DNA of 60,170 nucleotides from Candidatus Poribacteria bacterium (GTDB taxonomy: Bacteria > Abyssobacteria > SURF-5): the NCBI GenBank assembly GCA_016215705.1, contig JACRIR010000148.1, positions 1-60,170 of the forward strand. The letters run 5' to 3'. Below, in pieces: positions 23,711-36,096 of this stretch (positions within the stretch are counted from its first letter, which is position 1; each line of letters starts with the position of its first letter). The notes under the pieces are model-generated. The model was not told where the DNA came from. It saw only the letters and a list, made by a program, of their open reading frames with translations, and searched no databases. Made by a program: the position numbers and the translations under genes.

Positions 23711-25219
23711 ATGCCCTTTTCGGAGGATTACTTCCGGCTGTTCGAGAACGTTCCGGCGTTTCACGATCGAGTGACTCAGAAGTATTTGCTTGCCTCCTCG
23801 GGAGCACAGATCAGTGAAAGGCTGATGCGCTGCATCTGGTACGACAGGCTCTACGACCGGCAGAGGCTCATCACGAAGGACGGTAGGAATATAGTCGTTC
23901 ATTCGCCGGGTACGTGGAACCTGGAGAGCGGGCCCGATTTCGTGAGGGCTGATCTCAGCATCGGAACGACTCGACTGAAGGGCGATGTCGAACTCCATCT
24001 CGAGGCCGCCGGCTGGCGACTTCATAAACATTCTCTCGACAAACGGTACGATAATGTCATCCTTCATGTAATTCTCAAGCCGGGCGCCAGACAGGAAACA
24101 CCTGTGACCAGCCACGGAGTCGAGATTCCCGAGGCCGGCCTCTGGGGATGTTTGACCGATAACCTGAAAGTTCTCTCGTGCGCGCTCCGTCCCGAAGAGT
24201 ATCCATATAACAGCTTGCGCAACTTCGGCAGATGCCACGGGCTGCTCGAGCAGACGCCACTGGACAGCGCACTGCGGCTTCTCTATATCGCCGGTGATGC
24301 CCGAATCATTGCGAAGCAACGCCGATTCTCCTACGAGGCGGAAAAACAGAATCTCGATCAGGTCGCGTACGCCGCGTTGCTCGAGGGAATGGGATACAAA
24401 TCGTACCGAAAGCAGTTCAGCCAACTCGCACAGAGACTGCCGTATGAGCAACTGCAGGAGAGCGTCGCCGCGTCCGGCGCTTGTGGAGCATCTGAACAGG
24501 CTCTCTTGACACAAGCATTGCTCATGGGAACGGCCGGAATGCTTGGCGACTCGCCCGGCGCCGGGTCTTCGGAGGCCCGTGAGTACTCCGGTCGTTTGCG
24601 GGAACTGTGGGGATCGAGCGGCTTAAGGAACATGGAGCGGAGCGACATCGCATGGAAGGGGTCGGCGGTCCGTCCGGCAAATCTTCCCCAAAGGCGCATT
24701 GCCGGCGTGAGCCACGTTCTCGCCCGGACATATGGAGAGGGTGTCTTCAAGTGGATTCTTGCGTGCATGTCGGAGAATGATGCCCGAAAAGCGCGGCTTA
24801 ACTGTATCGAGTCCATGTCCCGGGCAGAGGATAGTTTTTGGTCATACCATTACAGCGTACGCGGCGAGAAACTCAGGGAGCCTGTGGGCCTCCTGGGAGC
24901 AGACCGTGCCCTCACGATTCTTGTAAACTCGTTTGTCCCTCTGGCCCTATTGAACGCGCGCAATGAGGGCCAACCCGGCAAAGAAGACCTCCTGCATAAT
25001 CTTTACTGCTCGCTGCCGTCGCCACAACCGAATGCCGTCACCCGGCTGATGGAGTATCGCATGTTTGGCGACTCCTCGAAGCTCCGCAAAACACGCTCGG
25101 CCCGCATACAGCAGGGGCTCATGCAGGTTTTCGCCGATTGGTGTAGCGAAGACCCTGCGTGCGAAAATTGCGGCGTCTTCGCCTGCCTGCAGAGCGGTCG
25201 GATTGGCGAACGACAATGA
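23711..25219 (+). CDS. DUF2851 family protein
   Basis: 502 residues starting at ATG 23711 after GGAAGGAGGAAAAG. The segment SGPDFVRADLSIG, then KGDVELHLEAAGWRLHKHSLDKRYDNVILHVIL, is the conserved core of DUF2851, widespread in Bacteroidetes and deep-branching bacteria and of unknown function. The C-terminus has a cysteine cluster, CSEDPACENCGVFAC, that may bind metal. Overlaps the next gene by 4 nt (ATGA), so it is coupled to a small zincin. No signal peptide. Because the core resembles nuclease-like folds (conserved D/E-x-K spacing), a nucleic-acid role is conceivable but unproven. Confidence 0.85.
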   Translation: MPFSEDYFRLFENVPAFHDRVTQKYLLASSGAQISERLMRCIWYDRLYDRQRLITKDGRNIVVHSPGTWNLESGPDFVRADLSIGTTRLKGDVELHLEAAGWRLHKHSLDKRYDNVILHVILKPGARQETPVTSHGVEIPEAGLWGCLTDNLKVLSCALRPEEYPYNSLRNFGRCHGLLEQTPLDSALRLLYIAGDARIIAKQRRFSYEAEKQNLDQVAYAALLEGMGYKSYRKQFSQLAQRLPYEQLQESVAASGACGASEQALLTQALLMGTAGMLGDSPGAGSSEAREYSGRLRELWGSSGLRNMERSDIAWKGSAVRPANLPQRRIAGVSHVLARTYGEGVFKWILACMSENDARKARLNCIESMSRAEDSFWSYHYSVRGEKLREPVGLLGADRALTILVNSFVPLALLNARNEGQPGKEDLLHNLYCSLPSPQPNAVTRLMEYRMFGDSSKLRKTRSARIQQGLMQVFADWCSEDPACENCGVFACLQSGRIGERQ

Positions 25220-25910: not shown

Positions 25911-27299
25911 ATGTCAGATTTCAGATTCACCCGCCGCCAATTCCTTGAGGTCACGGGCGCGACAACACTGGCGCTGTCGCTTGATTCCCTGGGTTTTCTA
26001 GGGGGCATGGCTCATGCCACTGAGAAAATCTTTCAGAAGTGGGAGTACAAGAACTGGGAGAGCCTGCATAGGGACGAATGGAAGTGGGACCGGATCACCT
26101 ACGGGACGCATCTGGTCGACTGCTATCCGGGCAATTGCTTGTGGCGCGTGTATGCAAAGGATGGAGTCGTCTGGCGTGAGGAGCAGGCGGGCAAGTATCC
26201 GATCGTTGACCCGAGCAGCACCGACTGGAATCCGCGCGGCTGCCAGAAGGGATGCTCGTTCAGCAATATGATGTACAATCCTGACCGCGTGAAGTATCCG
26301 ATGAAGCGCGTGGGCGAGCGGGGCGAGGGCAAGTGGAAGCGTATCACGTGGGACGAAGCGGCGGACGAGGTTTGCAACCACCTGATAGACGCCATCCAGA
26401 CCGCAGGTCCCGAGTCGATCATTTTCGAGCCCGGCCCGGGCAACGGTGGATGGATTCATCTCATGTCTTCGATGAATTTCCTCGGCAGTCTGGGCGCGAC
26501 CGAGCTTGACATCAACGCGACCATCGGCGATTTCAACAAGGGCGTATACGAGACGTTCGGGAAATTCCAGTTCTGCGATTCGGTCGATGGCTGGTTCTTC
26601 GGAAAGCTTCTGCTGATATGGCATATGAACCCCGTGTACACGCGCATCCCGTGCTATCATTTCATAGCCGACGCGCGTTACAACGGCGCTGAAGTCGTGA
26701 CGATCGCGCCCGACTATTCTCCTTCGGCCATACACGCGGACGAATGGATTCCGATAGAGATGGGAGCGGACGCCGCGCTCGGGCTCGCCGCAGGGCAGGT
26801 ATTGATCTCGGAGGGAACTTATGATAAAGCGTTCCTCAAAGAGCAGACCGATTTCCCGCTGCTCATCCGAAGCGACAACCACAAGTTTCTGCGCGAGACC
26901 GACGTGGAGAAGACGGGCCGCGAAGACCAGTTTTATTTCTGGGACTCTGCGGCAAACTCGCCGGTGAAGGCGCCGCGCGAGACGCTCTCGCTCCCGTGTG
27001 ATCCCGCACTCGAGGGGAAATACAAAGCAACGCTCAAGGACGGCAGCCAGGTTGAGGTCCGGCCGGGATTCGACATTTTCAAAGAGATGCTCGACAGGGA
27101 CTATACTCCCGAGAAAGCGTCACAGATGTGCGGCGCAAATCCCGAAACGATCCGGCGACTGGCGAGGAAAGCATGGAAGGCGCGCGGCCACGTTCAGATA
27201 CTCGTCGGCTGGAACTCATCGAAATACTATCACGGTGACCTCATGGAGCGCGCGATGTGTTTGCTGCTTGCGCTTACCGGCAGCGTCGGCAACAAGTGA
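25911..27299 (+). CDS. Type II molybdopterin oxidoreductase catalytic subunit, N-terminal part (before in-frame UGA)
   Basis: 462 residues up to a TGA at 27297. It begins with a twin-arginine signal (TRRQFLEV then a hydrophobic stretch to about residue 36), so the folded cofactor-loaded enzyme would be exported by Tat. Residues 50-120 (WESLHRDEWKWDRITYGTH, DGVVWREEQAGKYP, NPRGCQKGC) match the NarG/dimethylsulfide dehydrogenase/ethylbenzene dehydrogenase branch of the DMSO reductase family. His67, Cys71, Cys76 and Cys111 are candidate ligands of the FS0 cluster, with one more residue between the two first cysteines than NarG. LDINATIGDFN lies where the Mo-ligand Asp is found in this branch. 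AGGAGG precedes ATG 25911. The protein continues in the same frame after the TGA (next entry). Confidence 0.85.
   Translation: MSDFRFTRRQFLEVTGATTLALSLDSLGFLGGMAHATEKIFQKWEYKNWESLHRDEWKWDRITYGTHLVDCYPGNCLWRVYAKDGVVWREEQAGKYPIVDPSSTDWNPRGCQKGCSFSNMMYNPDRVKYPMKRVGERGEGKWKRITWDEAADEVCNHLIDAIQTAGPESIIFEPGPGNGGWIHLMSSMNFLGSLGATELDINATIGDFNKGVYETFGKFQFCDSVDGWFFGKLLLIWHMNPVYTRIPCYHFIADARYNGAEVVTIAPDYSPSAIHADEWIPIEMGADAALGLAAGQVLISEGTYDKAFLKEQTDFPLLIRSDNHKFLRETDVEKTGREDQFYFWDSAANSPVKAPRETLSLPCDPALEGKYKATLKDGSQVEVRPGFDIFKEMLDRDYTPEKASQMCGANPETIRRLARKAWKARGHVQILVGWNSSKYYHGDLMERAMCLLLALTGSVGNK
27297..27299 (+). other. In-frame UGA splitting the molybdoenzyme gene
   Basis: The codons read AAC AAG TGA TGC GGC ATC CGC GGC TGG, and homology continues without shift on both sides. 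In NarG the aligned segment is GQSGGGW, so the affected position is normally glycine and GGA to TGA is a single-base change. Downstream 30-40 nt can fold weakly (GCTG...CAGC with a TCG/CGA tip) but lack the GU-containing loop of a bacterial selenocysteine insertion element. Confidence 0.85.
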
Positions 27300-27344
27300 T
27301 GCGGCATCCGCGGCTGGAACCAATCGCTTTTCGACGGCAGCTAC

Positions 27345-28811
27345 ATGGTGGAAATGCGCATCGAGAGCGCGCTCAGCCTGCTTTTCCAGTTCGGCGAGGC
27401 GACGCTCGACAAGATGGTTCTCAAAAGAAAAGACCCTTCTCTCACAGAGGAGATGCTCCAACGGGAGATGGAGCGGGAGTGGGACAAAGGCGACACCGCG
27501 CCGCCGGTGTTTCTCTATTACTTTCATTCCAATTATCGCGACGCATGGAACAAGAAGGAATGGCATTGCCCGACGATGAAGCGCAGCTTCGACGAATATA
27601 TCAACGAGGCGATAGACAAAGGGTGGTGGGACGGCTTCGTTCAGCCTGCTCGTGACCAGAAGCCGCAAGTGTATTGTTATTACGGCACAAGTCCTGCGCG
27701 CAAGAACCGAGGCTGGTGGAACAACGTTTATCCCGAGCTGTGGAAACAATACAAATTCATTTTCACGGTCGAGATGCGCTGGAGCACGACCGCGCTTATG
27801 TCCGACATGGTTTTGCCCGGCGCGGGATTCTACGAAAAGACGGACACCCGTTTCCCGACCCCTCACGTTCCCTGGCTCACCCTCACGGAGGCCGCTGTAC
27901 CGCCTCCCGGCGAAGCCAGAGAAGAATGGGATATCTGGAAATTCCTGGCCGAACGAATGGTGAAAGTCGCGAAAGCGCGGAACTGCATGAAATACAAGAC
28001 CCGCAGAGGGAACGAGATCGATCTCACAAATATGGTGCGGGAACAGACACTTGATTGCAGGAACGCCGACCACGTGCTCGACGAGGCTCTGAAAGAAAGC
28101 GTCAAGCTCGGCCAACTGCCTGACGGCTACGATCTCAAGAAGTTTCGGGAGGACGGCATCGTGCGGTTCAGCAAAATCTCGAAAGTGGACGTGATTGCCA
28201 TGCACCTCGCGACCGATATCAAGCCGGACGAGCCGATTGTGCCCCTAACGTATCACACCGCGAAGAAGATTCCGTATCCGACTTATAACCGGCGAATGAC
28301 TTTCTACATCGACCACGACTGGTTCCTCGAAGCGGGAGAAGGCTTCCCTGTTCACAAAGACAATCCTAAGATGGGCGGGAACTATCCGCTGCGGATGACG
28401 AGCGGCCACCAGCGGTGGAGCGTGCACTCGATCTGGATCACCGATGACGTGCTCGCGAGAACACATCAGGGCCGCCCGTTCATGTTCATGAACCCGGAAG
28501 ACGCTGAAAAACGCGGCGTCAAAGATGGCGACCTTGTGCGCGTGTATAACGATTTCGACGATTTCAAAGTGCACGTAAAGTTGACCTCGGCGGCGCGCTC
28601 GCAGGGAGATGTTCGGCCCGGCCAGGTTATAATCTATCATGCATGGGAGCCGTACCAATTCGAGAAATGGAAGAGTTATGATACGGCAATCCCCGGCATG
28701 ATAAAGTGGCTCGACCTGGCTGGAGGCTACGGACATCTGAGCTTCTACCGATGGAACTGGTGCACTCAGCCGGTCGACCGCGCGGTTTCGGTGGAAATCG
28801 AAAAGGCGTGA
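27345..28811 (+). CDS. Type II molybdopterin oxidoreductase catalytic subunit, C-terminal part
   Basis: 488 residues from the first ATG (27345), in the same frame as the upstream part; homology already covers the codons from 27300. VYCYYGTSPARKNRGWWNN, FTVEMRWSTTALMSDMVLPGAGFYEKTD and the C-terminal molydop-binding domain (RMTSGHQRWSVHSIW, YHAWEPYQFEKWKSYD, GMIKWLDLAGGYGHLSFYRWNWCTQPVDRAVSVE) are typical of the type II branch, which oxidises or reduces nitrate, chlorate, selenate, DMS or hydrocarbons. Joined, both parts give about 966 residues, the normal length. Neither the usual iron-sulfur beta subunit nor a haem gamma subunit is nearby. There is no good ribosome site before 27345, so independent expression is doubtful. 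Either a recent nonsense mutation, an assembly error or stop readthrough explains the split. Confidence 0.85.
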   Translation: MVEMRIESALSLLFQFGEATLDKMVLKRKDPSLTEEMLQREMEREWDKGDTAPPVFLYYFHSNYRDAWNKKEWHCPTMKRSFDEYINEAIDKGWWDGFVQPARDQKPQVYCYYGTSPARKNRGWWNNVYPELWKQYKFIFTVEMRWSTTALMSDMVLPGAGFYEKTDTRFPTPHVPWLTLTEAAVPPPGEAREEWDIWKFLAERMVKVAKARNCMKYKTRRGNEIDLTNMVREQTLDCRNADHVLDEALKESVKLGQLPDGYDLKKFREDGIVRFSKISKVDVIAMHLATDIKPDEPIVPLTYHTAKKIPYPTYNRRMTFYIDHDWFLEAGEGFPVHKDNPKMGGNYPLRMTSGHQRWSVHSIWITDDVLARTHQGRPFMFMNPEDAEKRGVKDGDLVRVYNDFDDFKVHVKLTSAARSQGDVRPGQVIIYHAWEPYQFEKWKSYDTAIPGMIKWLDLAGGYGHLSFYRWNWCTQPVDRAVSVEIEKA

Positions 28812-28824
28812 AGGAGGGACTTCT

Positions 28825-29850
28825 GTGAAAACGTTGCGACTGGGCAAGACGGGGTTGATGGTTTCGGAGCTGGGGTTCGGCGGAATCCCGATAATCCGGC
28901 TCGGGTTCGAGGACGCCGTCGAGGTAGTGCGTCACTGCTTCGAGAGCGGCATAAGATTCTTCGATACGGCTAACGTGTACGGCGACAGCGAAAGAAAGAT
29001 CGGCCAGGCGCTCGAGTCCGTGCGCGATAAAGTGGTCCTTGCGACAAAGACGCTTGCGCGCGACGTTGAGGGCGCCACCGAGCACGTCGGCTACAGCCTC
29101 GAAAACCTGAAGACGCGCTGCATCGACCTGTATCAATTGCACAACCTGATAAATGACGACGCCCTCAATCAAGTGCTTGCTCCGGGCGGGGCCTACGAAG
29201 CTCTTGCCAGGGCAAAAGCCGACGGAAAGATACGGTTCATCGGGTTCAGTTCGCACAATATCGCCACGGCGATTAGAGCCTGTCGCACCGGCCTGTTCTC
29301 GACCGTCCAATTCCCATTCAATTTCATCGAGCACGATCCGGCGGATGACCTCTTCAAGGTGGCCGCCGAGATGGATATGGGCATAATCGCGATGAAGCCG
29401 CTTGGGGGCGGCCTGCTCGAGCGGGCCGACTTGTGCTTCCGATTTCTGCAAAAGTTCCCGAACGTGGCGCCGATCCCCGGCATTCAGGCGAAGGAGGAAG
29501 TGGACCAAATAGTCGAGCTTTACCGCTCGCCGAGGCCGCTTTCAGAGGCTGACCTCGCGGAGATGGAGACAATTCGCTCCCAGCTCGGAACGAAGTTCTG
29601 CCACCGCTGTGAATACTGCATGCCGTGTGACAAGGGAGTGCTGATACCGCAGGCGATGGCGTTTCGGTCATTCTCAAGGCGCATGGTCCCACAAGCCGCA
29701 ATCATGATGGCCGACGCCGCAATGGAAAGCATCGCGAACTGCGAAGATTGCAGGGAATGCATCGAGAAATGCCCGTACGGCTTGGAGATTCCGGAGGTCC
29801 TCAAAGAGACCCTCGCGCTCTACAATGATTTCGTGAAACAACACGGGTGA
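28825..29850 (+). CDS. Aldo/keto reductase with C-terminal [4Fe-4S] ferredoxin-like domain
   Basis: 341 residues; GTG start at 28825 with GGAGGGAC upstream, 13 nt after the molybdoenzyme stop. AKR barrel residues 1-265: LGFGGIPI, FFDTANVYGDSE (catalytic Asp and Tyr), ATKT (Lys) and YQLHNL (His) form the usual tetrad. The tail has CHRCEYCMPC and CEDCRECIEKCPYGLEIP, giving cysteines for one or two iron-sulfur clusters. Such Fe-S AKRs are found in anaerobes and couple substrate reduction to ferredoxin-like electron transfer. Tight spacing suggests an operon with the molybdoenzyme, whose product could be its substrate. Confidence 0.9.
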   Translation: MKTLRLGKTGLMVSELGFGGIPIIRLGFEDAVEVVRHCFESGIRFFDTANVYGDSERKIGQALESVRDKVVLATKTLARDVEGATEHVGYSLENLKTRCIDLYQLHNLINDDALNQVLAPGGAYEALARAKADGKIRFIGFSSHNIATAIRACRTGLFSTVQFPFNFIEHDPADDLFKVAAEMDMGIIAMKPLGGGLLERADLCFRFLQKFPNVAPIPGIQAKEEVDQIVELYRSPRPLSEADLAEMETIRSQLGTKFCHRCEYCMPCDKGVLIPQAMAFRSFSRRMVPQAAIMMADAAMESIANCEDCRECIEKCPYGLEIPEVLKETLALYNDFVKQHG

Positions 29851-35871: not shown

Positions 35872-36096
35872 CTGTTCTCTTACCTGAACGGGTCTTTGCG
35901 CGGACGGAGAGTGGACGATGGGGGCGTGCTCCAATCCGCCTTGACGCACGGCATGGTATCATATCCCCCAAAACGATTGCAACGTTCACAAGAGTCACAA
36001 ATCATAAGTTGAAAGTCGATGCCTTGCGGGGGGCACACCGCGTGTGCTAGACTGAGATGGTGTCCCGGATCAAAGGGTTTGTCTGGAGTTTTATTC

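Follow-up and report, generated by a model that had tools for sequence, protein, structure and literature searches.

By combining profile searches, codon models and hairpin scans, we find that a molybdenum oxidoreductase alpha-subunit gene of genome G000 is interrupted by a single in-frame UGA at codon 463, and we consider it probable that a recent nonsense substitution turned a conserved glycine codon into TGA in this one of four paralogous alpha-subunit genes. The window, a stretch of 60,170 nucleotides, is the entire contig C77 of this genome (5.47 Mb, 270 contigs, 92% complete). A single-base change from the conserved glycine codon to TGA would end translation at residue 462 and leave a truncated, presumably inactive subunit, a loss that would be bearable with three intact paralogues remaining, including the one that belongs to the sole complete alpha-gamma-beta-chaperone operon. 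Three points of this account are inferences: the presence of the base in the organism itself, termination of translation by the UGA at position 463, and tolerance of the loss.

Results

The frame at 25911-28811 on the plus strand, 966 codons in length, translates as 462 residues, a TGA at 27297-27299 (codon 463), a further 503 residues and the natural stop, itself also a TGA (28809-28811). The original prediction had described a type II molybdenum oxidoreductase with a lone in-frame UGA and an otherwise undecayed reading frame, and the translation bears this out, with one TGA at codon 463 and, beyond it, no further stop or frameshift in 25911-28811. The features of the locus are listed here.

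23711..25219, plus strand: upstream neighbour, a DUF2851 protein, not an enzyme subunit (profile search)
25911..28811, plus strand: the interrupted gene in full, for an alpha subunit of the EBDH/AhyA type of molybdenum oxidoreductase; TGA is codon 463 of 966 (profile and structure-sequence alignment)
25911..27299, plus strand: upstream open frame, 462 aa, with a twin-arginine-type leader (RRQFL), the Fe-S cluster region and the Mo-ligand region
26529..26531, plus strand: Asp207 codon, intact, aligned with EBDH Asp223 and 256 residues upstream of the stop (alignment)
27297..27299, plus strand: in-frame TGA, codon 463; Gly in 15 of 15 aligned relatives (alignment)
27300..27302, plus strand: Cys464 codon (TGC); most relatives have Ser here, whereas L023 and the published ahyA primer site have Cys (alignment)
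27300..27350, plus strand: stretch in which any bacterial SECIS for this UGA must fall; scans show no SECIS-like hairpin
27345..28811, plus strand: open frame from the first ATG past the stop, 488 aa, comprising the second half of the enzyme with the molybdopterin-dinucleotide-binding domain (PF01568)
28825..29850, plus strand: downstream neighbour, an aldo/keto reductase that carries a 4Fe-4S motif at its C-terminus and is neither a beta nor a gamma subunit (profile search)

Read through the stop, the protein matches TIGR03479 (DMSO_red_II_alp) along its full length at 910.5 bits (residues 8-964), short of the curated cut-off of 984.75; two relatives from Desulfosudis/Desulfococcus (L021 and L023) likewise score under that cut-off, which marks the interrupted gene as a side branch of the family. 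The EbdA (ethylbenzene dehydrogenase alpha) model gives 791 bits over residues 6-966, the Pfam domains found are Molybdopterin and Molydop_binding, and the alignment to PDB 2ivf_A covers residues 8-966 (E 1e-224) unbroken across the stop, in agreement with the collinear homology that had been predicted for its two sides. Among the aligned relatives, the His/Cys ligands H67, C76 and C111 of the N-terminal cluster are invariant and C71 nearly so. The class first proposed can be narrowed accordingly: judged from its sequence, the gene belongs to the EBDH/AhyA branch of type II DMSO reductase alpha subunits, with a putative role as a hydroxylase.

Seven intact copies in G000 and its sister genome G001 match the interrupted gene over its full length with E = 0, which excludes chance similarity, and none of them has an in-frame stop. 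Three are the intact paralogues of G000, at 81, 78 and 76% identity (contigs C176, C267 and C174), and four lie in the sister genome on C41 (a tandem pair), C4 and C113, all of them with a sense codon for glycine at the position in question. The sister genome is the only other one in the taxonomic family with the gene, the remaining matches among 41 genomes falling under threshold. The lineage is sparsely sampled, in that only two other genomes in the collection share the family of G000 and the next relatives share the domain only.

Each of the two genomes thus holds four diverged AhyA-like alpha copies; in G000, a beta subunit that passes the family cut-off is found next to a single one of them, the 78% paralogue on C267. 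The operon of this paralogue comprises alpha, gamma, beta, chaperone, cytochrome b and cytochrome c genes and shows synteny with the sister genome. Beside the interrupted copy there is no beta or gamma subunit and no chaperone operon, its neighbours being the DUF2851 protein and the aldo/keto reductase. With unrelated neighbours, and with the full operon only at C267, the interrupted copy is orphan and redundant, so that a nonsense mutation in it could be tolerated.

The prediction that the TGA falls on a conserved glycine is well supported. Relatives encode this residue as GGC (nine), GGA (five: L022, L023, L024, L026 and L036) or GGG (one), and both EBDH (GKPGTG) and perchlorate reductase (GTNGGG) carry glycine at the aligned site. 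The primer ahyA1377for, whose design was based on Desulfococcus oleovorans Hxd3, has the sequence AGC YTS GGC AAG AAR GGM TGC and encodes S-[L/F]-G-K-K-G-C (PMC7803848); it aligns exactly to the stop segment (nt 1372 of the interrupted CDS). Because the primer site encodes Gly-Cys, this pair is a natural state in the family and Cys464 a natural variant, and a Gly-Cys ancestor reading GGA-TGC would need one G-to-T change to become TGA-TGC. What stands firmly of the proposed GGA-to-TGA change is therefore the conversion of a glycine codon to TGA; the immediate ancestral codon would have been GGA on the evidence of the five relatives, whereas the three same-genome paralogues read GGC-AGC where the interrupted copy reads TGA-TGC.

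That a single transversion is enough from GGA, at a position where every relative has glycine, favours a nonsense mutation, as does the disabling of a conserved position in the presence of three intact paralogues. The same economy serves an alternative that we hold to be possible but rather unlikely, namely that the TGA is a sequencing or metagenome-consensus error, or represents a single allele where strains are mixed, and that the gene is intact in the organism: one wrong base suffices if the true codon is GGA, the genome is a fragmented draft, and G-to-T changes are a common type of artefact. Consensus substitution errors are nevertheless rare. When 784 kb of G000 was compared with itself and with 1.53 Mb of sister-genome sequence, about 249 kb of homologous frames were covered, and three in-frame stops were left after inspection: codon 463 and two selenocysteine codons, one in a formate dehydrogenase (FDH) gene and one in a gene for an HdrA homologue. 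No other unexplained stop therefore occurs in this homology-covered sequence, a point that counts against an error and, together with the lack of a SECIS at the site, favours the nonsense mutation. Inspection dismissed several other apparent in-frame stops as shadow frames lying opposite real genes. Of the 20 plus-strand window genes checked, 11 end in TGA, the interrupted gene among them, so UGA serves as a normal stop in G000.

Selection was estimated with a purpose-written codon model on ten sequences, with a tree from the whole alignment. On the branch of the window copy, omega is 0.031 before the stop against a background of 0.050, and 0.082 after it against 0.049; the ratio between the two parts is 2.7 (2dlnL 6.7, uncorrected for eight branches), and the second largest value among the branches, 4.8, points the other way. 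The downstream half is compatible with omega values of about 0.05 to 0.14, and the model rejects neutrality for it (2dlnL 33.7). If this half had been neutral since the stop arose, the stop would date to the last 3.5% or so of the branch as a point estimate, and to at most about the last 10%. The downstream half has thus evolved under strong purifying selection throughout nearly its whole history, which implies that the stop is recent, or else a consensus error.

Where the other seven copies are invariant, the columns with a private substitution are likewise unevenly spread, at 1 of 276 before the stop and 12 of 280 after it (Fisher p = 0.003, uncorrected); the other copies are balanced around the same site. 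Recent gene conversion with the 81% paralogue was considered as a source of this asymmetry and rejected, there being no low-divergence tract. We take the asymmetry as a weak hint that the TGA is genuine and does end translation, and to that extent it counts against an error; a true loss should, however, ease constraint on both sides of the stop, and upstream the constraint is if anything tighter. This undiminished upstream constraint and the absence of any second lesion are what an error would leave behind, and the latter counts against a nonsense mutation, for which the low upstream omega allows only a very young lesion. The evidence in hand does not separate the nonsense mutation that we favour from an error in the sequence or its consensus.

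The strong purification of the downstream half would also suit low-efficiency readthrough of the UGA by a near-cognate tRNA, with some full-length protein made. We regard this as improbable: the downstream selection is mostly older than the recent stop, Trp or Arg at the invariant glycine would probably be harmful, UGA is routinely used as a stop in this genome, and UGA followed by U is a comparatively efficient terminator.

Selenocysteine had been raised as a further cause of the interruption, and a search for its machinery found all three components in G000, with selB (371.5 bits) and selA (580 bits) side by side on C228 and a tRNA-Sec with anticodon TCA on C59 (68 bits). A second tRNA-Sec candidate, on C42, is a tRNA-Leu. 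Since the machinery is present, it alone cannot decide codon 463, and the comparison with two true selenocysteine genes of the same genome becomes decisive. As read from their sequences, G000 has at least two genuine selenoprotein genes, those for the formate dehydrogenase and HdrA. The NAD(P)-type formate dehydrogenase on C259 has UGA at the canonical selenocysteine position (HCARL-U-HSPSVAGL), and 18 nt past it lies a hairpin with an 8-bp stem and the loop GGUCU; against Rfam SECIS_3 this site scores 44.5 bits (E 2e-9), under the gathering score of 63. The gene (L041:4939; C259 base 10938), besides its SECIS_3-like hairpin, has a fused N-terminal GltD-like flavoprotein and ferredoxin part. 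The HdrA homologue (L057:17351, minus strand, on C5) carries an in-frame UGA where its paralogue has Cys (FPTMDCSI-U), with a hairpin of a 6-bp stem and the loop GGUC 27 nt past it.

Codon 463 presents a different picture, and the search for a SECIS past the stop, which had been suggested as a check, revealed no SECIS-like structure over 27300-27350. A descriptor that fits the FDH and HdrA hairpins has no match at this site, no Rfam SECIS family is found there even at E 10, with the FDH site as positive control, and RNA folding past the codon is no better than that of shuffled sequence. Of all TGA triplets in the window, 0.4% attain the hairpin energy of the FDH site and 3.4% that of the HdrA site. 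In 784 kb of G000 there are 64 TGA triplets flanked on both sides by at least 140 open codons, and among these only the FDH and HdrA sites join such a hairpin to a GG-initiated loop. A window TGA at 36010 with a hairpin of -8.2 kcal was rejected, as its loop is CGC and it separates unrelated frames. A whole-genome scan with Rfam SECIS_1 gave no match, but its controls were likewise empty, so it was set aside as evidence and the targeted scan with the FDH site as control took its place.

The nature of the position is equally telling. According to published surveys, bacterial selenocysteine arises mostly at Cys positions, with a SECIS immediately downstream that carries G in a small apical loop (PMC1794560, PMC1088965). 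The true sites of G000 align with Cys or with the canonical selenocysteine position and both have such a hairpin at the required distance, whereas codon 463 aligns with glycine in every relative, and UGA occurs in no sister copy. Nor is it the metal-ligand position, which lies far upstream as originally predicted, at Asp207; its counterpart EBDH Asp223 we take to be the Mo ligand from established knowledge of 2IVF. The missing hairpin, the glycine of the relatives and the distance from Asp207 together make selenocysteine at codon 463 very unlikely, even in a genome that carries selA, selB and tRNA-Sec and uses the residue in its formate dehydrogenase and HdrA. A literature search returned no paper on selenocysteine at an in-frame UGA in a molybdopterin oxidoreductase, a weak argument given its partial coverage of the literature.

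We give hardly more credence to recoding in a wider sense, whether by selenocysteine without a recognisable SECIS or by programmed readthrough, at what would be a structural glycine, with a neighbouring Sec-Cys pair unlike known molybdenum enzymes. That the two parts of the gene now work as polypeptides translated independently of each other seems to us scarcely credible, for although an in-frame ATG lies 45 bases past the TGA codon (27345), it has no Shine-Dalgarno-like sequence ahead of it, the second half would be without a Tat leader in an enzyme class that folds with its cofactor before export, and no relative is split.

Discussion

As a finding, one redundant alpha copy of the anaerobic hydrocarbon-hydroxylase type with a nonsense codon or a consensus error matters little. 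Its value lies in the method: where a genome decodes UGA as selenocysteine, an oxidoreductase gene with an in-frame UGA is easily mistaken for a selenoprotein gene, and the true selenocysteine genes of that genome provide the comparison that tells the two apart. Were recoding nonetheless to be shown, a selenocysteine in place of a glycine that does not ligate the metal would be a novelty among molybdenum enzymes.

With the bacterial selenoproteins FdhA and HdrA (PMC1794560, PMC1088965), the interrupted gene shares an in-frame UGA, an oxidoreductase product and a host that decodes selenocysteine; in contrast to them, codon 463 is without a SECIS, its homologues have Gly rather than Cys, and it is not an active-site position. 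The likeness to EbdA (PDB 2ivf_A) extends collinearly over residues 8-966, with the Asp ligand and the [4Fe-4S] region conserved, but the gene scores far under the EbdA equivalog cut-off (791 vs 2000 bits). Set against AhyA, the putative alkane C2-methylene hydroxylase alpha subunit of Desulfococcus/Desulfosudis oleovorans Hxd3 (PMC7803848), the interrupted copy differs in its TGA at codon 463 and in standing without adjacent ahyBCD-type genes, yet the two have the S-x-G-x-K-G-C segment and the TIGR03479 family in common, and the AhyA-type relatives from Desulfosudis/Desulfococcus MAGs (L021, L023) are full length and 62-65% identical to it.
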